Shown in pieces: positions 283-22,774 of a stretch of DNA of 31,793 nucleotides (its first letter is position 1; each line of letters begins with the position of its first letter). The notes under the pieces were generated by a model. The model had not been told where the DNA came from. It did no database searches and was given only the letters and a program-made list of their open reading frames with translations. Location: positions 1 to 31,793 of the IMG/VR virus record IMGVR_UViG_3300040795_000064; one strand, written 5' to 3'. Origin of the DNA: a virus. The position numbers and the translations under genes are program-made.

Positions 283-381
283 ATGATTCAATTTAAATCA
301 GTGCTTTTGGCAACCGCTGTGGCCGGTCTAGCAGCGAGAAACATTTTCATGCAGCAGATGATCCCGAGTGATCTTGTGTGA
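283..381 (+). CDS. Possible 32-residue membrane or leader peptide
   Basis: A short ATG-to-TGA frame lies in the gap between the truncated first gene and the 435 gene. Its product starts with Met-Ile-Gln-Phe-Lys followed by a small hydrophobic, alanine-rich stretch and an amphipathic end. It could be a tiny membrane peptide. No convincing Shine-Dalgarno sequence precedes it, and a frame of this length is easily expected by chance, so this is a weak call. If it is not a gene, positions 229-434 hold only AT-rich spacer plus the G-rich ribosome-binding region of the next gene. Confidence 0.2.
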   Translation: MIQFKSVLLATAVAGLAARNIFMQQMIPSDLV

Positions 382-434: not shown

Positions 435-755
435 ATGAAAAACCAAAAATTTTTTGAAAATGTCGGAAAATTAGTTCACGAAAACATAAAAAATAAAAAA
501 AATATAAATAAATTAAAAGACGATCATCTCGAGGTCCTCGAAATCGCCATCCCTGCGGGGGAGGAACAGATTTTTTTAATGTGTGACAAAAATTTAAGAA
601 CGTCTTCTCTGCCGATTTATACCACGTTTCAAAAATTTTTTAATTTAAAAAAAGACAAATTTGGAAATTATTTTCATCCTGAACCCAACCGCAAAAAAAT
701 CAATTATGGCGAAGCTGGGAAGAACTTATTGAAATTCCTTGTTTTTTCTGAATGA
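435..755 (+). CDS. Hypothetical 106-residue protein, translationally coupled to methyltransferase-like gene
   Basis: The protein is Lys/Asn/Phe-rich at the N-terminus, with no signal peptide or membrane span, and I recognise no domain. A G-run about a dozen bases upstream of the ATG can serve as ribosome-binding site. The stop codon overlaps the ATG of the next gene in an ATGA arrangement (752-755), the usual sign of translational coupling. The two products are therefore likely made together, and this one could be an accessory subunit or specificity partner of the methyltransferase-like protein; that is inference from position only. The basic N-terminal half would suit nucleic-acid contact, but no motif proves it. 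Confidence 0.65.
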   Translation: MKNQKFFENVGKLVHENIKNKKNINKLKDDHLEVLEIAIPAGEEQIFLMCDKNLRTSSLPIYTTFQKFFNLKKDKFGNYFHPEPNRKKINYGEAGKNLLKFLVFSE

Positions 756-1495
756 ATAAAATCAACCTCGTCGATTTGGAAAAGCTTTTCCATAGAAGTA
801 AAGACCGTATTAAAGACCTCGGAGAAGTATTCACTCCTGAATCCATCGTCGAGGATATGCTTGATCTACTTGCAAAAGACAAGCGTGGTTTGTGGAGTGA
901 CATAGACACAACTTTTTTCGAGCCCTGCTGCGGCCACGGGAATATAGTTCTCGCAATCTACCGAAGACGACTTGAAGCTATTTACAAGAAAGCTTTGTCG
1001 CAGAATATAAAAGAAGCTGCCTATTATGCTGTAGCCAATGCACTAAACACTCTCTGGGCAATCGATATTGACGCAAATAATGTCGAAGATTGCCGAACAC
1101 GAGTTTTTGCTGCAACATTAGATTTTTTAAAAGAGAAGCTACGAATAAATAGTGACTTCATTTTGATCTCCCATAAAAGAGAATTCTTTGCTCATGTGCT
1201 GTCTTGCATTCGATGGCAGGTCGATGAGAACGAAACACTATCCGCCCTTAGCTCACCAGCCTTGGCTAAAGAAAAGGCAAGTCTAACGAAACCAGGTGCA
1301 AAATGGTTAGCTCAAAACGGTCATCACCAGCTTGATTTTAATTATACATGGTGTGCTTTTTTTAAAGAGTGTGAATCAAAGGGCACTGTGCCCCCCGAAT
1401 TTGAAAGATCACTAAAATTCCTTGAGGCCGTTTTGACGGGCAAAGTTCGTGGTTTTGATGAATACAGATTTGTAAAAGTTATTATTTACGCATGA
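752..1495 (+). CDS. N6-adenine-type DNA methyltransferase-like protein lacking an NPPY motif
   Basis: Residues 24-40 (GEVFTPESIVEDMLDLL) match the conserved start of the N6-adenine methylase core of type I and type IIG enzymes. Motif I, which binds S-adenosylmethionine, is FEPCCGHGN at 56-64, and motif II is WAIDID at 102-107. The catalytic (N/D/S)PP(Y/F/W) motif expected after motif II is not visible anywhere in the 247 residues; the nearest string is a VPPEF near residue 210. Full-length enzymes of this class are far longer, so the protein is a methylase fold with an atypical or absent active site. Small phage proteins of this type are often annotated as restriction subunit M. It could protect phage DNA if another residue set replaces NPPY, or could bind SAM or DNA without methylation. 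It overlaps the preceding gene by four bases. Confidence 0.75.
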   Translation: MNKINLVDLEKLFHRSKDRIKDLGEVFTPESIVEDMLDLLAKDKRGLWSDIDTTFFEPCCGHGNIVLAIYRRRLEAIYKKALSQNIKEAAYYAVANALNTLWAIDIDANNVEDCRTRVFAATLDFLKEKLRINSDFILISHKREFFAHVLSCIRWQVDENETLSALSSPALAKEKASLTKPGAKWLAQNGHHQLDFNYTWCAFFKECESKGTVPPEFERSLKFLEAVLTGKVRGFDEYRFVKVIIYA

Positions 1496-1525: not shown

Positions 1526-1554
1526 TTGACACCTAAATCAATTTTTGTTAGACT
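1526..1554 (+). promoter_or_regulatory. Sigma70-like promoter for the exported-protein cassette
   Basis: A perfect -35 box TTGACA (1526-1531) is followed after 17 bases by TAGACT (1549-1554), four of six matches to the -10 consensus. The start site would fall near 1561, about 40 bases before the ATG at 1602. It sits in the 106-base gap after the methyltransferase-like gene and is well placed to drive 1602-3948. Inference from consensus only. Confidence 0.5.
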
Positions 1555-1601: not shown

Positions 1602-2168
1602 ATGAGATTTCATTTTTCTAGCGTGGTTTTATTTTTGTTTTCAAGCGTTGCCTTTGCGCAACTGCCGCCGGAGCTAAACCCGGGCGGATTTAAAGCGTAC
1701 TGGCCTGGCTCGGGCCGCATGGATCTTATCGTTCATTCCAGCCGGGGGTCGGTCGAACCACAAAATTATTGTATGGCCTACAGCGGCACCATGCTGAGGG
1801 GCCACACGATCCGCATGCAGCCTCCCGAGGGCTCGCATCAGTGGGGCAATCCCCATTTGGAGACCATCCAGGCCGCGCGCATTGAGAAAAATGGAGGCGC
1901 GTGGAATAAATTTTGGGGCAGCCACACGATCCAGCGCTGGACGTGGGGCAACACCAATCGTTTTGGGTACAACGTGGCGATGGGATCCGTATTTGTTCCG
2001 CGTGGGTATGTTTTAGAGCTCTATAACAATATTAATTATGAACCCTCCGGCGGCGGTTTGATCGTTGCGGGCGCCATCCTTACCGATCTAGAAGACTACG
2101 CGCCTCAAATTAATTCTGTGCTCTGCACACGGACGAACGAAGACGCTTCTTACGTTTTCCCTATGTGA
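1602..2168 (+). CDS. Secreted hypothetical protein, 188 residues, first gene of exported cassette
   Basis: The ATG at 1602 is chosen over an upstream TTG (1545) because it places a clean signal peptide at the N-terminus: Met-Arg, a hydrophobic core and the cleavage-type end SVAFA just before Gln-Leu-Pro. The mature part (about 169 residues) is Gly-, Trp- and Asn-rich, with features of a beta-rich extracytoplasmic domain, and has two well-separated cysteines that could pair in the periplasm. I recognise no family. The mature coding part is visibly GC-richer than the genes on either side. It is the first gene of a four-gene plus-strand run, all of them exported, and its stop overlaps the region where the next gene begins. 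Confidence 0.75.
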   Translation: MRFHFSSVVLFLFSSVAFAQLPPELNPGGFKAYWPGSGRMDLIVHSSRGSVEPQNYCMAYSGTMLRGHTIRMQPPEGSHQWGNPHLETIQAARIEKNGGAWNKFWGSHTIQRWTWGNTNRFGYNVAMGSVFVPRGYVLELYNNINYEPSGGGLIVAGAILTDLEDYAPQINSVLCTRTNEDASYVFPM

Positions 2169-2188
2169 GAAAAAAAAGGAAAAAAAAG

Positions 2189-2995
2189 ATGAATACAAAG
2201 ACTTTAGTGCCCCTCGCAACGCTCCTTTTCCTCACCCCCCGCGTGGGCGAGGGGGGCTACAAGGAAGACATGATTAAGAAATTTGGCCACTCTAATTTTA
2301 TTTATGATGCCGCGCATGATGTGGAAGAAGAGCAAAAAGTGCTTAAATTTAACATCCCAGAGCCCGTGCCCCTCGCTTCATTTGTCATAGATTTTCGCGT
2401 GTGCCCCCAAGATGCCGATTTAAATACATGCAGACTTGGAAAACAACGCTTCATTCGCGAGGCAAACCCCAGGCCCGCGCAAACGCCAAGGCGTTTTGAC
2501 CGCGAAATCACGGGGGTCCTCCGTGTTTATTCTGGGAATATTTTAAGTGTTGAGCGTTTTATAACAAAAGAAATGGAACGGACCCTCGAAAAACAAACCA
2601 TGGGAGCCGCGCACCTGGGGCAGCTCGCCTATCAAGCTGCTCAAGATGAGTTAGCTAAAATGCTTAAAGACCCCGAGAAGGGCATCCCCGATGACCATGA
2701 ATTTGGTGATGCGCGAGACGATCAAGCGCGTCGTCGGTATGAGGAGATTAAAGCACGGGCTCAAAAGCCTATAGAAGACAATTCGATGCCTCAAGAATCT
2801 GAACGATTACCGCCACTTATCGAAACCAAAGAGTTCAGTATGGGTGATCAAAGAAAAATTTGTATGGACATCATCGCGAGCAAACTCGAACTTCTAGAAG
2901 TTTACGAGTTGGATCGTGAAAATGAAGAAATAAAAGATGCGATTGAATTTTTGATTCAGCAATATGACAAATCAAAATGTAACGAGATTCTATAA
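2189..2995 (+). CDS. Exported hypothetical protein, 268 residues
   Basis: An AAGGA sequence lies before the ATG at 2189, which gives a short signal-peptide-like N-terminus with core LVPLATLLFL. Upstream in-frame codons starting at 2165 would add a poly-basic extension and are less likely used. The mature protein has an N-terminal region with two nearby cysteines (around CPQDADLNTC), a charged, probably helical middle with many Glu, Arg and Gln, and a C-terminal part with two more cysteines, so two disulfides are possible. The middle may form a coiled coil. I recognise no family. The gene is second in the exported cassette and follows the preceding gene by about 20 bases. Confidence 0.7.
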   Translation: MNTKTLVPLATLLFLTPRVGEGGYKEDMIKKFGHSNFIYDAAHDVEEEQKVLKFNIPEPVPLASFVIDFRVCPQDADLNTCRLGKQRFIREANPRPAQTPRRFDREITGVLRVYSGNILSVERFITKEMERTLEKQTMGAAHLGQLAYQAAQDELAKMLKDPEKGIPDDHEFGDARDDQARRRYEEIKARAQKPIEDNSMPQESERLPPLIETKEFSMGDQRKICMDIIASKLELLEVYELDRENEEIKDAIEFLIQQYDKSKCNEIL

Positions 2996-3012
2996 AAAGG
3001 AATACCACTCAC

Positions 3013-3531
3013 ATGAAAAAATTTTTAAGTTTTATTTTGGCGTTTTCAATACCCTTTAGCGGCTTTGCGAGCGAAAACCCCATAAATTATGAATTAATTA
3101 ACAGGCATTGCGAACTCTTAGAAGAAGCACTAATAAAAGGCGTTATAAAGTTTGAAGAAGTGGACACAGACGAGATAAAAAAAGGTATTTTCATGCTAGG
3201 AGATCGCTGTGAGATGAGAGTTGAAGATTATTGGCGTGCGCTGGAAACCGTTGCTTTAAGAGGGGGGGCCGCGGGTGGAGTTGCTTTGACTGCGGCCGGG
3301 GCTGGGAGTTCAAACTACATAAAACTTTTGACAAAAGGTGCACTGGTTGGGATTGCTCCGCGCTTTATCCCCGGTATTGCAGCTATTGCAGCCTCCTTGG
3401 GGGCGGTGAGTGGGGTCATGGAAACCATACGGGTTTTGGAAGAAGAGCAAAAAAAATGCTTGGACGATAAAAACGCCGAAATTATAAAAATGTTAGACGA
3501 TCATCTCAAAAAACTGGGTCACACGAGGTAG
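3013..3531 (+). CDS. Exported protein with Gly/Ala-rich hydrophobic segment
   Basis: A typical signal peptide is seen at residues 1-20 (basic start, hydrophobic core, SGFAS cleavage end). After an acidic helical region with two cysteines comes a long Gly/Ala-rich hydrophobic stretch, roughly residues 80-138, that contains GGAAGG and GAGSS-type patterns and two hydrophobic halves split by a Lys-Leu-Leu-Thr-Lys turn. This resembles a helical hairpin or glycine-zipper segment that inserts in a membrane. A charged, helical C-terminus with a third cysteine follows. No family recognised. Function could be envelope insertion, for example superinfection exclusion or host modification, but this is inference. 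It is third in the exported cassette, 17 bases after the previous stop. Confidence 0.7.
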   Translation: MKKFLSFILAFSIPFSGFASENPINYELINRHCELLEEALIKGVIKFEEVDTDEIKKGIFMLGDRCEMRVEDYWRALETVALRGGAAGGVALTAAGAGSSNYIKLLTKGALVGIAPRFIPGIAAIAASLGAVSGVMETIRVLEEEQKKCLDDKNAEIIKMLDDHLKKLGHTR

Positions 3532-3543
3532 GGAATTAAAAAA

Positions 3544-3948
3544 ATGAAAAAATATATTTACTTTTCTGTGTTAATAGCGCCCGTGTTTTTTTTATCATGT
3601 GGAAAAAAAACACAAAAATACCAAAAAGAATACCCGCTACATGACTCACGAAATCTCTTCGATCTCAATTATCTTTACTCAGCTTGTGCAAAACGGTATG
3701 CTGGACTAGATCCAATTTACATGCGCTCGGATGCGGGTACACCTGGGGAAGAAGAATTCCCTTCCTGCGTATCCGTTAAAAAAAAGCTTCTTGAAAATAA
3801 TTTGAGTGCAGCTCAAGTTGCTGAAATTTTACAAAATTTGAGAGAGGGCGACATTTTTGAAGCCAAGCAAAACACGAAATATTTTTCCCATGAAGCAATT
3901 AAAAATTTAAAAAATTTAATCACGCGATTTGAAGGGCCCCCTTCTTGA
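3544..3948 (+). CDS. Putative lipoprotein, 134 residues
   Basis: The N-terminus has two lysines, a hydrophobic core and then FFLSCGKK, a type II signal peptide with acylated Cys19. Position -3 is Phe rather than the more usual Leu, but -1 Ser and +1 Cys fit. Position +2 is Gly, not Asp, so outer-membrane sorting would be expected in an enterobacterial-type Lol system. The mature part has two further cysteines, in YSACAK and PSCVSV, that could form a disulfide. No family recognised. It closes the exported cassette 12 bases after the previous stop and converges on the C39-like peptidase gene. Phage lipoproteins often block superinfection by shielding receptors; that role is only a possibility here. 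Confidence 0.7.
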   Translation: MKKYIYFSVLIAPVFFLSCGKKTQKYQKEYPLHDSRNLFDLNYLYSACAKRYAGLDPIYMRSDAGTPGEEEFPSCVSVKKKLLENNLSAAQVAEILQNLREGDIFEAKQNTKYFSHEAIKNLKNLITRFEGPPS

Positions 3949-3980: not shown

Positions 3981-4619
3981 TTATTGCCCATCAAGTAAAA
4001 TTATGATTGAATACCAAATATCTCCATCGTTCCCAAGCATGCGATGCATTAAATTATAAGAATAATGCATTGATTTTGCGTCGACTTCTGTATCATAACC
4101 ATCCTCCCACCACTCTCCAAAGGGGTCATTCACAAAAAAACCTGAATCATCATAGCCTGTTATGACCACTATGTGCCCCGATTCGGTGAACCTCCCGTGG
4201 ACGATTACGGGAATTCCTACTTTCACAAATTTTTGAATATCCTCAAAATCCCCGTGATAGTTATTAAAAATCAATGGGTCGGGGTGTCCGTTTTCCTTGA
4301 GTTCCGCTCTCAAAATATCAGCAAGACCTGTTGGGCTTTGTCCTGCGGTCTTACCATATTTTGCGTAAATCTCATCAGGTGTGATTTTATGAGACCAATA
4401 ACTCAAAACCATGGCAGCACTCGAGATCCCACAGGTTCCATAAGGCTCGTTCTCGTTTAAAAGCTGGTGATAGTAGGGGACGTCGAGTGATTTTTTTTGT
4501 AGTATTATCGGAACCTTATCAATGTCGGCAATATTAAAATTATAATAAGTCATCACAACGGGCGTAGCGATCACCCCCGCAAGGGTTGTCGCTATAATAA
4601 AAGATTTGAGGGGGATCAT
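3981..4619 (-). CDS. Membrane-anchored C39-like cysteine peptidase
   Basis: The protein has an N-terminal hydrophobic signal-anchor (about residues 5-24) followed by a papain-fold domain of the peptidase C39-like type. The catalytic Cys63 sits in YGTCGISSAAMVL, the His149 in SGHIVVITGYDD and the acidic residue Asp165 in VNDPFG, in the order and spacing known for this superfamily. The catalytic domain would face the periplasm. There is no ABC transporter part, so it is not a bacteriocin exporter. Possible substrates are envelope proteins, the products of the neighbouring exported cassette, or peptidoglycan-linked peptides; the sequence does not decide. It is transcribed alone, converging on the lipoprotein gene with a 32-base gap. 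Confidence 0.8.
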   Translation of the reverse strand: MIPLKSFIIATTLAGVIATPVVMTYYNFNIADIDKVPIILQKKSLDVPYYHQLLNENEPYGTCGISSAAMVLSYWSHKITPDEIYAKYGKTAGQSPTGLADILRAELKENGHPDPLIFNNYHGDFEDIQKFVKVGIPVIVHGRFTESGHIVVITGYDDSGFFVNDPFGEWWEDGYDTEVDAKSMHYSYNLMHRMLGNDGDIWYSIIILLDGQ

Positions 4620-4722: not shown

Positions 4723-5088
4723 TTATATCTTTGAAACAAACTGAGCATACCCTCCGTGTTCGTTGACTAAATCAATAAAACGTTTTTGGGCAAGCTCTTT
4801 TGGCGTTTCTCGAAATTTCCAACCCGGCTTTTTTATTTCAAACGCAACGAACTGACCCAACAATTGCCCCACATGATCCTGTGTGATGAGGAGGGGCTTG
4901 ATGCCTACAAGGTCTGAGGATTTAAGTGCGGCGTTCATTTTTTGGGATTCGTTTGCGAGCCCAAAACGCAAAAAACCCCCATAAGGCGTTTTTAAAGCAC
5001 CCACATTATTCCTCCAAAGCACGTACCCCAAAGATTCATAATATTTTTTAACTTCATCCTGCAAAGACTTTTCTAATCTTTTATTCAT
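4723..5088 (-). CDS. VRR-NUC domain nuclease
   Basis: Starting at the ATG at 5088, which has an AAGGA sequence upstream, the product is 121 residues; the in-frame extension upstream would cross the divergent promoter region and is rejected. It shows the compact PD-(D/E)XK layout of VRR-NUC proteins: an N-terminal helix, a conserved region ending in Asp59 (SSDLVGIKP), then FEIKKPG with Glu84 and Lys86 as the metal-binding and catalytic pair. VRR-NUC proteins are structure-specific or Holliday-junction-type nucleases found in many phage replication modules together with DUF2800, DUF2815 and family A polymerase genes, as here. It is unusual in being transcribed away from its partners. Its role is probably in processing replication or recombination intermediates. 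Confidence 0.85.
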   Translation of the reverse strand: MNKRLEKSLQDEVKKYYESLGYVLWRNNVGALKTPYGGFLRFGLANESQKMNAALKSSDLVGIKPLLITQDHVGQLLGQFVAFEIKKPGWKFRETPKELAQKRFIDLVNEHGGYAQFVSKI

Positions 5089-5106
5089 GTGTTTTTTTTC
5101 CTTGCG

Positions 5107-5135
5107 TTGTAATCGCGACAAAAAAAAGATAACAT
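5107..5135 (+). promoter_or_regulatory. Candidate promoter for the replication module
   Basis: The 77-base gap between the two divergent replication genes contains TTGTAA (5107-5112) and, after exactly 17 bases, TAACAT (5130-5135), each matching four of six consensus bases. A transcript would start near 5142, about 24 bases before the ATG at 5166. The same gap must also carry the promoter of the minus-strand nuclease; an AT-rich stretch on that strand with TTGTCT is a weak candidate. Confidence 0.4.
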
Positions 5136-5165
5136 AAAATAAAAAAAGAAAGACAAAACCACACA

Positions 5166-6170
5166 ATGGAACACTCTCAATTCTCGCCGAGCTCCTCCCA
5201 CATTTGGTCCCGATGCCCCGGATCTTTAAGTCTACCGATTCAAGAAACATTTCTTGAGAGCGAATTTGCCCTCGAAGGCCATAAAAAACACTGCGAAGCC
5301 CACGATTTTTTCAGTAAAAATATTTTTCAATGCGATGACCCCCACGTTTCTTTTTATTTGTCTGTTCTAGAAAAATTAAAGGAAGAAGAGGGGGTTTCTG
5401 TCTTAAAACTTGAAGAAAAAATTCATGTGCATGGGGAATGTTTTGGCACCGCCGACGCTTTTGCTTTCAACGCGCATACCCATGTTTTAACCGTGATTGA
5501 TTTTAAATACGGTATATATCCTGTGGAAGTAGATGAAAACACTCAACTTTTACTTTATGCGTATGGTCTTTTAAAAAAATATAACGCGCACTACATCGTT
5601 TTAAAAATCGTACAACCCAGAGCGCATCACCCCGAAGGCCCCACACGTTCGGTGGTCTACACCCGAGACCAATTGCTTGAATTCGTCCACCCATTAAAAA
5701 AAATTATAGATGAGCCTAAAGAAGAATTTAAAACGGGGGGACATTGCAAGTTTTGCAAACGCAAGTTTTTTTGTAAAGCCTTCCACGACGCGGCCGTTTC
5801 TTTAACCGAGGTGGCTTTAAAAAGCCCAAAACCTCAAAAAATTGAAAAAAATCACGTCGGAAAATTTTATGAGCAGATCAAAATTGCTCTTGAAAAACTC
5901 ACTGCTCTTGAAAAAATATATGCTCAGCATATAAAACATTCGCTCGGGGTTCCCGGCTACAATGTAGTTCCCGCGTTATCCACACGAAAATGGGTTGCTA
6001 CCCCTCGCGAATTAAAATCGTGGGCGCTAGCTAATAATTTTGAAATATGTGAAGAAGTTTTTTTAAGCCCTGCGCAGATTGAAAAAAAATACAACACGCA
6101 AGTACCTAAAAATTTTGTAAATCGCGAAATCATAGGCGTAAGAATAAAAAAAGGAGAAGAAAGCGTATGA
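5166..6170 (+). CDS. DUF2800 family RecB/Cas4-like nuclease
   Basis: This 334-residue protein matches the phage DUF2800 family: it opens with the signature SSSHIWSRCPGS (Cys17), then has a PD-(D/E)XK nuclease core with Asp97 (GTADAF), Asp112 and Lys114 (VIDFKYG) and a later Gln-Leu-Tyr-Ala-type helix. Cys194, Cys197 and Cys203 (CKFCKRKFFC) with Cys17 form the cysteine set expected for an iron-sulfur cluster, as in Cas4 and AddB-type nucleases. It is likely a 5' or 3' exonuclease working with the adjacent ssDNA-binding protein in replication and recombination. Its stop overlaps the next ATG by four bases, so the two are translationally coupled. Confidence 0.88.
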   Translation: MEHSQFSPSSSHIWSRCPGSLSLPIQETFLESEFALEGHKKHCEAHDFFSKNIFQCDDPHVSFYLSVLEKLKEEEGVSVLKLEEKIHVHGECFGTADAFAFNAHTHVLTVIDFKYGIYPVEVDENTQLLLYAYGLLKKYNAHYIVLKIVQPRAHHPEGPTRSVVYTRDQLLEFVHPLKKIIDEPKEEFKTGGHCKFCKRKFFCKAFHDAAVSLTEVALKSPKPQKIEKNHVGKFYEQIKIALEKLTALEKIYAQHIKHSLGVPGYNVVPALSTRKWVATPRELKSWALANNFEICEEVFLSPAQIEKKYNTQVPKNFVNREIIGVRIKKGEESV

Positions 6171-6755: not shown

Positions 6756-8708
6756 ATGCACATAGATTTTGAAACTTATTCCGAGGCGGGTTATGTGTTT
6801 GATAACACTCAAAAAAAGTGGGTGTCTATCACGCAATCCCCACCCTTTGGACTCGGTGCTGTAGGCGCGGCGGTCTACGCAGAACACCCCTCCACTGAGA
6901 TTTTATGTTTGGCTTATGACGAACATTTTTGGAAACCCGGCGATCCCCCGCCAACAAAACTGTTAAATCACGTGGAATCGGGCGGCACAATTTTTGCTTG
7001 GAACTGCTTATTTGAGTTTTGGATCTGGCAGCAACTCGCACATAAAAAAATGGGCTGGCCTCCACTAAAAATTGAGCAATTACGAGACCCTATGGCACGC
7101 GCGCGCGCTTTCACACTCCCCTCAAGCCTTAAAAAAGTCGGCGAGATTTTGAACGTTGAGAGTCAAAAAATTGACACTCCTGTGCTTAAAATTTTTTCAG
7201 TCCCACGAAACCCAAGCAAAACGGACCCAAGGAGGCGGATCCGTCCCTGGGATTTTATGGCAAACCCGGGAGAACTCTACGCATATAATATTCAAGATGT
7301 CCGTTCAGAGACAGAAATAGAGCAACGATTACCAGAGCTTACAGAGTTTGAACACAAAGTGTTTTTACTTGATCTTAAAATTAATAATCGCGGCGTGTTT
7401 GTTGATAAAGAACTTTTAAACACCTCTATAAAAATTATTAAAAAAACACACGCAGAGCTTACAAAAGAACTTTCTTACCTGACCGAAAACCAAATTACCA
7501 GCGCAAGCCAAGTCAAAAAAATCTGTGATTATACGGGGTTAGAAGATCTTTCACTTGAAAGTTTAGAAGAAGCATTAAAAAACCGTCAAAAATTTGACGC
7601 CAAACAATTTCGGGTTTTAGAAATCCGTCACCAGCTCGCGAGCGCAAGCATTAAAAAAACTTTTGCGATCAAACGCAGAATCAGCCAAGACGGGCGTTTG
7701 AGGGGTATGTTTGCCTACTGTGGCGCTGACCGCACGGGCAGGTGGGCCGGACGTGGGCCCCAACCCCAGAACTTGCCCGCGAGTTTTTCAGAGCTGGAAA
7801 ATTCGGATCACAGAAAGTGGGTAAATTTAAACGAAAAGCTTGAGTCCCATATCTCAGGTCATCCGCGTCCTTTGGAGCTCGTAGGAAGCTATTTACGGGC
7901 TTTATTCTGTGCACCTGAGGGTAAGGTATTGATATGTTCTGACTTTTCATCTATCGAAGCGGTCGTCCTTTCTTTTTTGTCAAATGAAGAGTGGAGGAAG
8001 GAATCTTTTTATAAAAAACAAGACATTTATAAACTTTCAGCAAGCCGCATCCTTAAAAAACCTGTTGATATGATTACAAAAATGGAACGTCGGATGGGAA
8101 AGATCGCCGAGCTCGCCCTCGGGTACGGTGGGGGAATAAATGCGTGGAGGGCTTTTGATTCTCATTCCGGCATGTCAGAATTTAATATAAAAAAGACTAT
8201 CGAAAACTGGCGGCAAGGAAGCCCACAGATTATAAAATTCTGGGCGCGGTGTGAATCCGCAATGAAAACAAGCATCTACCACCCGCATAAAAAAATTCCG
8301 ATTGTAAAAAATATTTACGCATATTTCGATAACGATACAAAAATAGCGTCAATTACACTTCCATCGAAAAGAAATTTATACTACCACAACGCCCACATTG
8401 ACTTTTCGGGCTCGATCGGCTACCGTGGGGGGCCCGCTTGGGTCCCGTTGCGGACGTATGGCGGAAAACTGACTGAAAATATAGTCCAAGGCGTAGCACG
8501 TGACCTACTCGCCCACGCTTTAATTAATTTAGAGGATGCGGGCTACCCGGTCGTGATGCACATCCACGACGAAATTGTTTGTGAAATACCAGAGGGTTAC
8601 GGGTCTTTAGAAGAGTTTGAGCGTATTATGTCACGTGTTCCCGATTGGGCCGCCGGTTGGCCAGTCCGGGCTACGGGCGGCTGGGTCGGAAAATATTATC
8701 GCAAATGA
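6756..8708 (+). CDS. Family A DNA polymerase with 3'-5' exonuclease domain
   Basis: The 650-residue protein is a phage replicative DNA polymerase of the Pol I family. The exonuclease domain has Asp4 and Glu6 (DFETYSE), the Exo II region around Asn83 (WNCLFEF) and Exo III in YAYNIQDVRSE near 176-186. The polymerase domain has motif A with Asp396 (SDFSSIEAVV), motif B with the KMERRMGKIAELALGYGGG region near 440-460 and motif C with HDE (Asp605) in VMHIHDEIV. No 5'-3' exonuclease domain is present. The start is fixed: an in-frame TAG lies two codons upstream, and the first exonuclease Asp is residue 4. The ribosome-binding site is weak. It ends 11 bases from the convergent late operon, with no clear terminator between. 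Confidence 0.95.
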   Translation: MHIDFETYSEAGYVFDNTQKKWVSITQSPPFGLGAVGAAVYAEHPSTEILCLAYDEHFWKPGDPPPTKLLNHVESGGTIFAWNCLFEFWIWQQLAHKKMGWPPLKIEQLRDPMARARAFTLPSSLKKVGEILNVESQKIDTPVLKIFSVPRNPSKTDPRRRIRPWDFMANPGELYAYNIQDVRSETEIEQRLPELTEFEHKVFLLDLKINNRGVFVDKELLNTSIKIIKKTHAELTKELSYLTENQITSASQVKKICDYTGLEDLSLESLEEALKNRQKFDAKQFRVLEIRHQLASASIKKTFAIKRRISQDGRLRGMFAYCGADRTGRWAGRGPQPQNLPASFSELENSDHRKWVNLNEKLESHISGHPRPLELVGSYLRALFCAPEGKVLICSDFSSIEAVVLSFLSNEEWRKESFYKKQDIYKLSASRILKKPVDMITKMERRMGKIAELALGYGGGINAWRAFDSHSGMSEFNIKKTIENWRQGSPQIIKFWARCESAMKTSIYHPHKKIPIVKNIYAYFDNDTKIASITLPSKRNLYYHNAHIDFSGSIGYRGGPAWVPLRTYGGKLTENIVQGVARDLLAHALINLEDAGYPVVMHIHDEIVCEIPEGYGSLEEFERIMSRVPDWAAGWPVRATGGWVGKYYRK

Positions 8709-8719
8709 GAAAAAAAAAA

Positions 8720-9076
8720 TTAAAGCTCTGGGTTAAATTGTGTGCAGTTCGTCCCTTGCCCGCCACGCCAACACAAAACCTCAAGTTTTAACCGATGAGC
8801 GTTTTTTAGATTTTCGTAAAGCCTATGGTTATCTTCTTGTAATTTCTCATGTTTTTTTATAACCCCAATCTGCGAATAGGTGCTTATTCCACACAAAAAA
8901 GCAAAAACCCCCAAATGAACCCATCTTTTCACAAATAAAAACGCACACTTGTCAAAAAAATCGTAGGGCGGGTGGGCCGCTTCCGATTTTCTCGAAGCAG
9001 CTATCAAAAGAAGCGCGACCAAACCCATATTTAAAATATAGGCATTAAAAAGCAAAAAGAAATCACTAAAATTCAT
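8720..9076 (-). CDS. Membrane protein of the lysis region, candidate holin or inner-membrane spanin
   Basis: The 118-residue protein has two predicted membrane spans, about residues 8-27 and 49-68, and a hydrophilic tail (about 70-118) that looks helical (KKHEKLQEDNHRLYENLKN) and contains two cysteines close to the end. It is the last gene of the late operon, two genes after the endolysin. The endolysin has no signal peptide, so a holin is needed; this is the best candidate in the window. The coiled-coil-like tail also resembles an inner-membrane spanin subunit, but no outer-membrane partner is seen beside it. I do not recognise a named holin family. Confidence 0.6.
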   Translation of the reverse strand: MNFSDFFLLFNAYILNMGLVALLLIAASRKSEAAHPPYDFFDKCAFLFVKRWVHLGVFAFLCGISTYSQIGVIKKHEKLQEDNHRLYENLKNAHRLKLEVLCWRGGQGTNCTQFNPEL

Positions 9077-9130
9077 TTTTTTATTTCCAATCTTTTTTTT
9101 TTTTTAAAATCGTTGCGTTTAGGGGCGTGT

Positions 9131-9355
9131 TCACCCCGAAAAAGATTTGATAACCCCCTCAAGAATTGCTTCTACCGCGGAAACCGCAGCGTTATCAAAT
9201 TGTTCCCCGGGGACGAGGTCCCGCACTTTTTGATAAATTTTTTCTTTAAAAGCATTCTCATCAAAAGAATTATTTAAAACGCCGTCATCTAAATAATCGC
9301 CGAGAAGTGAAGTTATAACATGTGTGATTTTAGATAAATAAAAACTTTCTAGCAT
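9131..9355 (-). CDS. Small hypothetical protein between endolysin and membrane protein
   Basis: The ATG at 9355 with a GGGG sequence eight bases upstream is preferred; an in-frame TTG at 9388 would overlap the endolysin gene end. The product is 74 residues, acidic, probably helical, and has no strong membrane span, so it is not an obvious holin. Its position in the lysis region, with similar spacing to neighbours, suggests a lysis or tail accessory role. No family recognised. Confidence 0.6.
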   Translation of the reverse strand: MLESFYLSKITHVITSLLGDYLDDGVLNNSFDENAFKEKIYQKVRDLVPGEQFDNAAVSAVEAILEGVIKSFSG

Positions 9356-9368
9356 AAAAAAAACCCCA

Positions 9369-9914
9369 TCAAAAATCTTGGATGACAACCCGATTTTTTA
9401 TCCAGCCATATAAAAATTTTTTATCTTTAGGTCGGCGGCTCGCGAGATCCAGATAATGTGCTCCCTGCAAACAATTTAAAGCTGTTACGAACACGAGTTC
9501 ATCCCGCTCTTTTAAATACGCGCGCAACGCACTCATCGTCCTGCGCCCCACCAAACCATCGATAATCAATTTTTGCGATTCGCCCAAAAAAGCATTGAGT
9601 GTTGCTTGCAAAAATTTAGAAGCTTTTGAAACCCCCACATTGACCCCCGTATCAAAAATTTCCATCACGGTGTGAGGCGCGATATCTATCATCTCGTCGC
9701 CACAGATCGGATCCCAGTACATAATTTTATAAATATTTAAAGCAGTTTTTAACTCAAGATCTTTCATTTCTTTTGTGTACCCGAACTGCCGCGCAGTAGT
9801 TTCCGTGATCCCGTACTTCGTTTTTCCCCCCGAATCGGCGGGATCGTCGACATAACCACCCTCTTTTTCTAAAACGATGCCAACAGCATCTTCAAAGCTC
9901 TCAATTTTTCTCAC
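9369..9914 (-). CDS. Endolysin, GH108-type muramidase with peptidoglycan-binding C-terminus
   Basis: The N-terminal half carries the glycosyl hydrolase 108 signature: KEGGYVDDPADSGGKTKYGI with catalytic Glu18 (numbered from the GTG at 9914). The MYWDPI and FDTGVNVG strings follow as in the family, and the C-terminal part fits the short peptidoglycan-binding domain usual in these proteins (IDGLVGRRTMSAL). The enzyme should cleave peptidoglycan glycan strands for host lysis. No signal peptide or anchor is present, so export needs a holin. The start is a GTG: one at 9914 overlaps the preceding stop as GTGA and follows GGGTGGG at good spacing; another in-frame GTG at 9926 is possible. GH108 lysins are typical of phages of Gram-negative bacteria. 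Confidence 0.9.
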   Translation of the reverse strand: MRKIESFEDAVGIVLEKEGGYVDDPADSGGKTKYGITETTARQFGYTKEMKDLELKTALNIYKIMYWDPICGDEMIDIAPHTVMEIFDTGVNVGVSKASKFLQATLNAFLGESQKLIIDGLVGRRTMSALRAYLKERDELVFVTALNCLQGAHYLDLASRRPKDKKFLYGWIKNRVVIQDF

Positions 9915-10195
9915 GAATAAACCCACCCTGTATTTGTGAAAATAAACACATGTGTGCGGCGATTTTGAATAATTGGATTAAAAAACACACCAAAATCAAA
10001 ATTTCCCCCGCCCAACTCCAACGTAAAATTTTGACCGATGTTTGTTAAAAAAACAGTGTGTCCTTCTGGAATTTGAGAATCATCAGAAAAGTTTATCGTA
10101 TGAGCACTTTCAATCGTATTAAAATTTAAAAAAATGTTTTGAGCATTTTTGTCAATCTTTAAAATTTTATCTTGAACAGCCGCGTAATCCACCAT
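9911..10195 (-). CDS. Hypothetical 94-residue protein downstream of the tailspike
   Basis: The protein is predicted to be mostly beta-structured (FLNFNTIESAHTINF, HTVFLTNIGQNFTLEL) with no membrane span or signal peptide. A GGAG sequence stands eight bases before the ATG. It sits between the tailspike and endolysin genes and its stop overlaps the endolysin start. A virion-associated or tailspike accessory role is plausible from position, but no family is recognised. Confidence 0.65.
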   Translation of the reverse strand: MVDYAAVQDKILKIDKNAQNIFLNFNTIESAHTINFSDDSQIPEGHTVFLTNIGQNFTLELGGGNFDFGVFFNPIIQNRRTHVFIFTNTGWVYS

Positions 10196-10233: not shown

Positions 10234-12165
10234 TCACGCGATCCGCGTCGCTTTAATATAAATATAAGTGTTATTAGCCGTAACTCCCCCAGTCGACTGG
10301 ACATATATGCCCCACGTTGCGGGGGCCGCCAAAGAAATAATGACTGTGCCAATATCGCCGATCACGCGGGTCCCGTTGGCTAGATTCGTGTTATAATAAA
10401 GGCACGCGTTGTTATCAGTGGGAATGTTATGAACTGTCGCCCAAACGCTCTGTGTCGCGCCTGTTGTATTTTGAAAATCGTAGGTTCCGCAAAGGAGCCA
10501 AATGCCCGGGGTAAGAGCCTGAGCTACTGCTAGTCCATAGCTCACGGGGGCGACAAAAGACCCGGCCGAATTTATTTGAAAGCTTTCACCAACAAAACCC
10601 CCGGTAACCGCCCCGCCGCGAAAGCCCTGCACCCGCGTTCCTTGGCCTGCGCCCGCGCCCCCAAAATTATTAATCTCGGTGACGCCTGTCCCTTTGTTTA
10701 ATAATACAAGATCGCCATTCGCGCCGGAGCCTCTAATGAATCTGGCGTCAAAATCTGCGCCTGTGGTTCCATGAAAATCGACGTAAGCATCCCCTGCAAC
10801 CGGTCTTCCCTGACCGACTTCTAAAAATCCTGCTGTGAAATAATTATCGCCGCCGATCTCCCGCCACGCAGAGCCCACACGCACCAATTTGAGGGCTTCC
10901 CCTACGCGCAGGAGGCGATTCGCGTCATTTGAAAGTAAAATATTTCCCGTGCCGTGAACCACAGTCGTAGCCACCGTATCGGCAACCACGGTTAATTCAT
11001 AACCTTCAGGAATTGTACTTAACCCAATGATATTTAACGTTTCTATACTTGTAGAAGTGCCCTGCAAATAAATTTTATCAGTACCAAAACGTATAGAGAA
11101 AGTTGGAGTGCTTGAAGACACATTATACCCAGATCCCACTATATTTCCAGAAATTAAAGACCCATCCCCCAAAGCCGCAGCGATCGATGAGGAAGCGGCG
11201 TTAGATACATCATTATTTCTAAAAGATACCAGTATCCCCGCCGCAGCCAAAGGAATATTAAGTGGTGATAAGACTATAAAATCATTATTAAAAATAGAAA
11301 TTCTAGTCGTAGTTGTCCCAGTTAAAAAAACTGCCGTGTGTGTGGCGGAAGCTCCAATAAAATGATTATTTCCAATAAGCACATCCTGTGTATCAACCAA
11401 AACAATCGCTCCCCAGTCAATTCCCGCAAGAGAGATATTATTCCCGTGGATTATCCCCTGAGAGCCTGAAACGACTCGAACAAAACGGGCTTTGGTCGTT
11501 CCAGAGACACCGACTCCGGCCTGGATATTATTTATAATTTTAAATTTTGAGCATCCCGTTAAAAAAATAGGGTAACGACTGGTTGCAGCTTCGACTCTAA
11601 AAAAAAGACCAGCGATCTCAAAATTATTTATGCTTGTGTAACTAAAAGCCGCAGTGTCGGTTGCCCCACCGTTTATCAAAATAGCGGCTTGCCCATGCGA
11701 AAAGAGGCTTGAATTACACGTCACCGTACCATCGATTTTATAAGTCCCGCTTGGAAAATAAAGCGGCTTGTTTGTGTTTGCCGCCGCCTGGATGGCGGCG
11801 GTATCGTTTGTAACCCCGTCGCCCGTAGCGCCATAATCTTTTACGTTAACAAAATCGTTCCAACGGTCGAAGTTATCGCGAAACGTGGTGCCACCGTCCG
11901 TGGAGTACGGCCCCGTTCCAACGAGCGTGCCTACTGCATTGTAATAGTCGCTCGCACCCACCTGATCGGGCACTCCTGACGGCGTTATGCCCGCACCATC
12001 GAGCAGACTTTGAAAAAAGCCAAACCAGTCGTTTACTAAATCAGCCTCCCAGGGGGTGCCCGTCCCGTCGCCGGGACTCGAGATGTTTTGAGCAGACCCT
12101 TGTGGATAGGCGGCTGAGGGCGCGCCCGTTTGGCCGGGGTACCGCGAAGAGGGGATGATAGCCAT
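10234..12165 (-). CDS. Tailspike or tail fibre with pectate-lyase-like beta-helix
   Basis: The 643-residue protein starts with a Pro/Gly-rich adaptor (about 1-100, including a WEADLVNDWFGFFQ helix) for baseplate attachment. The classical tailspike motif VNVKDYGATGDGVTNDTAAI begins near residue 107 and marks the start of a right-handed parallel beta-helix of the pectate lyase 3 type, with repeated short Asn- and Ile-rich rungs up to about residue 380. A different C-terminal region, rich in Gly and Thr, may handle trimerisation or receptor contact. The protein should recognise and possibly degrade a surface polysaccharide of the host. Active-site residues cannot be assigned. It is the first gene after the baseplate cluster, as usual for receptor-binding proteins. 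Confidence 0.88.
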   Translation of the reverse strand: MAIIPSSRYPGQTGAPSAAYPQGSAQNISSPGDGTGTPWEADLVNDWFGFFQSLLDGAGITPSGVPDQVGASDYYNAVGTLVGTGPYSTDGGTTFRDNFDRWNDFVNVKDYGATGDGVTNDTAAIQAAANTNKPLYFPSGTYKIDGTVTCNSSLFSHGQAAILINGGATDTAAFSYTSINNFEIAGLFFRVEAATSRYPIFLTGCSKFKIINNIQAGVGVSGTTKARFVRVVSGSQGIIHGNNISLAGIDWGAIVLVDTQDVLIGNNHFIGASATHTAVFLTGTTTTRISIFNNDFIVLSPLNIPLAAAGILVSFRNNDVSNAASSSIAAALGDGSLISGNIVGSGYNVSSSTPTFSIRFGTDKIYLQGTSTSIETLNIIGLSTIPEGYELTVVADTVATTVVHGTGNILLSNDANRLLRVGEALKLVRVGSAWREIGGDNYFTAGFLEVGQGRPVAGDAYVDFHGTTGADFDARFIRGSGANGDLVLLNKGTGVTEINNFGGAGAGQGTRVQGFRGGAVTGGFVGESFQINSAGSFVAPVSYGLAVAQALTPGIWLLCGTYDFQNTTGATQSVWATVHNIPTDNNACLYYNTNLANGTRVIGDIGTVIISLAAPATWGIYVQSTGGVTANNTYIYIKATRIA

Positions 12166-22393: not shown

Positions 22394-22774
22394 ATGCAGG
22401 TATCTGATAAACTTTGGAATAAAATAAAAAATGAACTTCCTGGGACTCCACAGGGGTGGGGGCGCACGGGGACCGATAATAAAAAATTTTTTGAAAGTTT
22501 GTTAAAGATTTCAAAAGAAAACCTACAGTGGAAAGACGCCCCGCTCATCACCACTACTATAAAAAACACCAATTTAAGGGCACGCAGGTGGTTTAAAAAA
22601 GGAATTTTTGAAAAATTAACGGATCTTCTCGACCCCAAAGATCCAGAAGAAAAAAAAGTGCAAGACTTGCTTAAAAGGCTAACTCAAAAAATGCTGCGTC
22701 GTTCTCAATGTTTTGGACAGAAAGTGCAATCGATTCAAGGACTTCTGGAGCAATTTGAGGCGAAAACTCGTTAA
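22394..22774 (+). CDS. Stand-alone DUF4096 (IS5-type transposase N-terminal) protein, antisense in late operon
   Basis: The first 80 or so residues follow the DUF4096 domain found at the N-terminus of IS5-family transposases: VSDKLWNKIKNELPG, then GRTGTDNKKFFESLLKI, WKDAP and RARRWFKKGIFEKL. The usual continuation into a DDE core (DSTIVRAH-type) is absent; the last third is instead a basic helical tail. This tail overlaps antisense with the final 104 bases of the tail-completion gene, while the DUF4096 part fits the gap before the sheath gene. It is the only plus-strand gene in the late region. The domain is a probable DNA-binding helical module, so it may be a moron regulator. No inverted repeats or second ORF of an insertion sequence are seen. 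Confidence 0.68.
   Translation: MQVSDKLWNKIKNELPGTPQGWGRTGTDNKKFFESLLKISKENLQWKDAPLITTTIKNTNLRARRWFKKGIFEKLTDLLDPKDPEEKKVQDLLKRLTQKMLRRSQCFGQKVQSIQGLLEQFEAKTR

Follow-up and report, generated by a model that had tools for sequence, protein, structure and literature searches.

What are four adjacent genes for exported proteins doing in a phage genome? Where the function of an exported phage protein is known, it mostly concerns lysis, host conversion or superinfection exclusion, and those that have been studied determine who else infects the cell or the behavior of the host surface. The genes considered here, designated g1 to g4, lie near the left end of a 31,793-base stretch of DNA (the window), which is an entire virus record. 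Four orphan exported genes in a run make a small candidate envelope module that lends itself to testing. The original prediction for this locus had suggested that their products could modify the envelope or exclude superinfecting phages, with expression from a prophage or early in infection, and had considered a structural role in the virion unlikely.

Genome context of the cassette

Judged by its shared genes, the window is an incomplete genome (31.8 of about 42-44 kb, the size of complete relatives) of a contractile-tailed myovirus similar to Shewanella phage SppYZU01. The terminase, portal, capsid, protease and tail-sheath genes are on the minus strand, and their closest counterparts are found in SppYZU01 (identity of 63% for terminase, 68% for portal, 67% for capsid and 74% for tail sheath) and in a set of uncultured phages. 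Further relatives include Acinetobacter phage Scuro and Pseudoalteromonas phage PY6. Because the helicase and primase-sized genes of these relatives were unmatched in the window, and the window ends without redundancy, about 10-12 kb appear to be absent. This segment would join the right end, at the small terminase, to the left end, close to the cassette. Terminases with 57% identity were also seen at two loci in metagenome-assembled genomes labelled Nitrospinota and Shimia, which are perhaps phage contigs binned with bacteria.

Several other features of the window were recorded. At 283-381 (plus strand), a 32-codon ORF has a signal-like start (MIQFKSVLLATAVAGLAARN...) and is possibly the remnant of another exported gene. 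It is followed by a methylase-like ORF at 752-1495 (plus strand), with an N-terminal FEPCCGHGN motif, no visible NPPY-type catalytic motif and foreign codon usage, which was possibly acquired recently or is catalytically dead. At 4723-5166, a nuclease gene abuts the exonuclease gene, an order that differs from that of the relatives: in SppYZU01, Scuro and PY6 a helicase gene, unmatched in the window, stands between the two. The ORF for a family A DNA polymerase (6756-8708, plus strand) encodes 650 aa against about 790-900 in relatives, and segments of the alignment are missing. Between the tail-sheath and neck-region genes lies a 126-aa ORF (22394-22774, plus strand) that runs against the structural genes and aligns with the N-terminal portion of the IS5-family transposase model NF033580 of NCBIfam (E 1.3e-11, positions 4-92 of 258). 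This ORF is not present in relatives, and may be either the remains of a transposase or a DNA-binding domain captured within the structural block.

Four consecutive genes encode proteins with export signals

The cassette consists of g1 (1602-2168, 188 aa), g2 (2189-2995, 268 aa, or 276 aa from a GTG at 2165), g3 (3013-3531, 172 aa) and g4 (3544-3948, 134 aa), consecutive and all on the plus strand. The coordinates, strand and lengths given in the original prediction were all correct. Scored with codon statistics taken from phage core genes, g1 to g4 are coding in these frames (+0.09 to +0.18 bits per codon), with negative scores in the other five. Gaps of 20, 17 and 12 bp separate g1 from g2, g2 from g3 and g3 from g4. 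The tight spacing had been taken to suggest a single unit, and the four genes are probably transcribed together. A consensus-like promoter had also been placed at 1526-1554 (plus strand), about 48 bp upstream of g1. The site is present as a sigma-70-like consensus match (TTGACA-17-TAGACT, 10 of 12 positions, with a TG extension), but the stretch around the cassette is AT-rich and promoter-like sites are common there. Such sites are only modestly above chance, with 19 found in the region against 12.8 +/- 3.3 expected (1.5 times the shuffled expectation).

A uniform script and inspection of the N-termini both found Sec-type signals on all four products, as had been predicted. The N-termini of g1 (MRFHFSSVVLFLFSSVAFA followed by Q) and g3 (MKKFLSFILAFSIPFSGFA followed by S) are good Sec signals, while that of g4 (...FFLSC followed by GKK) contains a good lipobox, FLSC at residues 16-19, with Cys-19 as the lipid Cys. 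The N-terminus of g2 (MNTKTLVPLATLLFLTPRVGEG followed by GY) is the weakest of the four, having an h-region and a poor cleavage motif. The script applied a crude rule (basic n-region, uncharged hydrophobic stretch, A-X-A-like site or lipobox) to 39 window genes and flagged five of them: g1 to g3 with a type I signal, g4 with its lipobox, and the neighboring C39-type peptidase gene with an N-terminal anchor. The other 34 were unflagged. Five positives among 39 genes would fall in one block by chance with a probability of about 6e-5 (35 placements over C(39,5)). Few phage genes otherwise encode products that leave the cytoplasm: by the same crude script, one of 157 annotated genes in three relatives carried a type I/II signal, and three carried anchors.

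Export of g1 to g4 is thus well supported by their predicted signals. As had been suggested, a role in the envelope is better supported than one in the virion. A possible disulfide pair in each mature product had been proposed as a further common feature. The Cys counts of the mature proteins (two in g1, four in g2, three in g3, and two in g4 besides the lipid Cys) do allow one pair in each. They are weak evidence, since many non-exported phage proteins in the window also have at least two Cys, and so do not discriminate.

Properties and relatives of the individual proteins

The Trp-rich g1 protein, with a Sec signal peptide of about residues 1-19, probably has a mainly beta fold. By eye, its segment NRFGYNVAMGSVFVPRGYVLELYNNINYEPSG looks like the point where two Greek keys of a beta/gamma-crystallin meet, and the weakly crystallin-like stretch covers residues 114-147. 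A profile built from 16 bacterial crystallin domains was compared with g1. With the two-key profile, g1 scored above all other window proteins and was equaled by one of 3000 shuffles, whereas with the one-key profile 777 of 3000 shuffles scored as high. Alignment by hhalign gave a probability of 8.8% (0 of 400 shuffles as high), and the Pfam beta/gamma-crystallin models PF00030 and PF03995 gave no match above cut-off. The crystallin-like stretch is thus a weak indication, to be used as a lead only. The g3 protein is helical and contains a hydrophobic stretch rich in Gly and Ala, seen in 19-residue windows that start at residues 109-124. AlphaFold2 single-sequence models of mature g1 and g3 (mean pLDDT 35 and 41, respectively) were too poor for use.

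None of the four had been assigned to a recognized family, and this held in our searches of Pfam, NCBIfam and PADLOC, where nothing exceeded the cut-offs. Marginal Pfam/NCBIfam matches to LepB_GAP_N, BamJ and CcdB were far below them and were rejected. The one exception is a marginal match of g1 to phrog_20506 (function unknown, E 0.002-0.009). No credible match to g1 to g4 was found among 177,635 PDB sequences, nor any match by tblastn in 50,697 phage records. With g1 to g3 as queries, neither the plasmids of PLSDB nor a sample of about 400 genomes, all from one bacterial phylum, gave a credible match. Two hits were attributed to chance on inspection: one among the plasmids, between g1 and a type IV pilin of Comamonadaceae OS-4 (E 0.7 for the plasmid collection), and one among the genomes, with g2 (22 bits, with a stop inside). 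A scan of genome contigs with g1 found nothing, and tblastn searches of the early regions in a dozen relatives found none of the four genes, these relatives holding at most scattered export-like ORFs.

Pattern scans of IMG/VR with g1, g2, g3, g4, the C39-type peptidase and the methylase also returned no relatives. These scans need exact short peptide matches and have limited sensitivity: a control with the core exonuclease found none, though roughly 30%-identical homologues exist in IMG/VR contigs. Distant homologues of g1 to g4 may therefore exist. At the sensitivity reached, the cassette appears to be an orphan of its lineage; the lack of relatives fits a lineage-specific cassette and adds no independent support.

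A candidate accessory envelope operon

We propose that g1 to g4 form a phage-resident accessory ("moron") operon. Because all four carry export signals, their products would act outside the cytoplasm of the infected cell. They would cross into the envelope through the host Sec machinery, where g4 would be tethered as a lipoprotein, g1 and g2 would be soluble in the periplasm or secreted, and g3 would be soluble or inserted via its Gly/Ala-rich helix. In this location they may guard the infected cell's envelope or remodel it. In superinfection exclusion, a second phage would be denied its receptor, passage through the cell wall or entry of its DNA. We tentatively favor an accessory envelope operon with exclusion as its likeliest single role, because the lysis genes lie elsewhere, no lysogeny gene was recognized in three quarters of the genome, and good precedents exist. 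Against exclusion, g1 to g4 have no sequence relation to any known exclusion protein. Known exclusion factors are also mostly single proteins, and four would be unusual.

If the four products do work together, exclusion systems would extend beyond single proteins. A more elaborate version, in which four exported orphans (one lipid-anchored, perhaps one with a crystallin fold), possibly together with the anchored C39-type peptidase, would make up a phage multi-protein machine in the periplasm or outer membrane, is a long shot. The underlying observation is sound and statistically strong, and its interpretation is plausible. The cassette is rather uncommon, yet exported phage morons as such are already known, and it is not a demonstrated new system.

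Exported orphans and a lipoprotein behind their own promoter-like site would also fit a moron for host conversion, whose products serve the infected or lysogenic host in adhesion, protection or competition, unrelated to other phages. A secreted crystallin-like g1 would suit such a surface or secreted role. However, no integrase or repressor was recognized in the window, from which a quarter of the genome is missing, and the annotations of close relatives contain no lysogeny genes apart from one "putative integrase" label in PY6. We consider host conversion rather doubtful, and retain exclusion as the preferred role.

The C39-type peptidase and the lysis genes

Facing the cassette on the minus strand, and hence outside the g1-g4 transcript, is a gene for a C39-type (papain-like) peptidase (3981-4619). 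It matches Pfam PF13529 with an E value of 6.9e-23 (82 bits against a cut-off of 24), and inspection revealed the motifs GTCGISSAAM, GHIVVITGYDD and NDPFG, which supply the Cys, His and Asp/Asn of a C39-like peptidase. The N-terminal membrane anchor identified by the script is rich in Ala, Thr and Gly, and is signal-anchor-like. Phage relatives of this protein are labelled endolysin or C39 peptidase and come mostly from cyanophages. It shares its domain with the cyanophage "endolysin" group (31-38% identity), but unlike that group has its own N-terminal anchor and lies apart from the lysis genes. Though not one of g1 to g4, the peptidase is a possible partner of the cassette.

Its adjacency, its kinship with phage proteins labelled endolysin, and the fact that o-spanins, like g4, are lipoproteins would together suit an accessory lysis or cell-wall module, in which the exported proteins and the anchored peptidase act on peptidoglycan or the outer membrane at lysis. 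The usual lysis block, however, is already present at 8720-9926, comprising a GH108-type endolysin (9369-9926) and a small two-helix membrane protein. The endolysin gene is on the other strand from g1 to g4, which show no linkage to endolysin or holin genes, and g4 has no adjacent inner-membrane spanin partner. The opposite orientation of the cassette and the peptidase gene also argues against a joint module. With the lysis genes located elsewhere, a lysis cassette is less likely than exclusion, and we judge it improbable.

Origin of the cassette

The GC content drops along the run, from 0.53 in g1 to 0.36 in g4, which may hint at separate origins, and linkage of the four genes was seen in no relative. 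Both points would fit four independent morons placed side by side by chance, without a common function. The tight spacing on one strand and the similar codon bias speak against this, as does the absence of other exported genes from the window, and we give a chance assembly little credence.

A host or chimeric origin was weighed because the cassette is near the contig end and absent from the relatives: the left end might come from a bacterial chromosome flanking a prophage, or be an artefact of assembly, with the cassette as an ordinary bacterial operon. The methylase-like gene further left does differ from the phage core, with a codon-usage log-odds of -0.05 and 1.3 runs of G or C per kb. By contrast, the log-odds for g1 to g4 and the C39-type peptidase gene (+0.05 to +0.08) match those of the core (+0.03 to +0.10), as do the use of GGG for Gly (16 of 54 against 218 of 653) and the density of runs of at least four G or C (5-12 per kb). 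In the window, GGGG/CCCC occurs 2.7 times as often as base composition predicts, more than in any of 44 relative loci (0.3 to 2.0), and this excess spans the cassette, falling toward the left end (weaker at 1-1000). In addition, the gene after that for the C39-type peptidase encodes a nuclease and is conserved in relatives, and g1 to g3 had no bacterial homologue in the sampled genomes of one phylum. Residence in the phage is thus the simpler reading of these signatures, though a host could share them, and a bacterial or chimeric origin seems unlikely. The window also makes heavy use of GGG for Gly and CCC for Pro, and this G/C-run signature may be a clue to the host.

Comparison with known systems

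Bacterial secreted beta/gamma-crystallin-like proteins resemble g1 in being exported, and g1 is likewise probably beta, with a short stretch that fits a Greek-key junction. It differs from them in leaving the Pfam models unmatched and in aligning over only about 33 residues.

In phage T5, the early lipoprotein Llp acts from the periplasmic side to block the receptor FhuA (PMC9586334). Like exclusion lipoproteins of the Llp/Cor type, g4 is a small phage lipoprotein with a signal peptide and lipobox, and is predicted to be directed to the envelope. Its sequence, however, has no match among PDB sequences, which include Llp, or in Pfam, NCBIfam and PHROG. Whereas T5 llp adjoins pb5, g4 lies more than 6 kb from the tail-fibre gene (10234-12165), and unlike the Llp/Cor proteins it is accompanied by three further exported proteins. 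The predicted lipobox would thus be the sole defining feature of a named exclusion family that g4 shares.

In T4, Imm and Sp block DNA injection and lysozyme action (PMC11436027), and the exported Spackle (gp61.3) acts on lysozyme (PMC7650644, PMC11436027). Imm and Spackle are single proteins, and g1 to g4 have no sequence match to any PDB entry; the likeness is that the cassette products, as predicted here, would also be small phage proteins placed in the envelope or periplasm.
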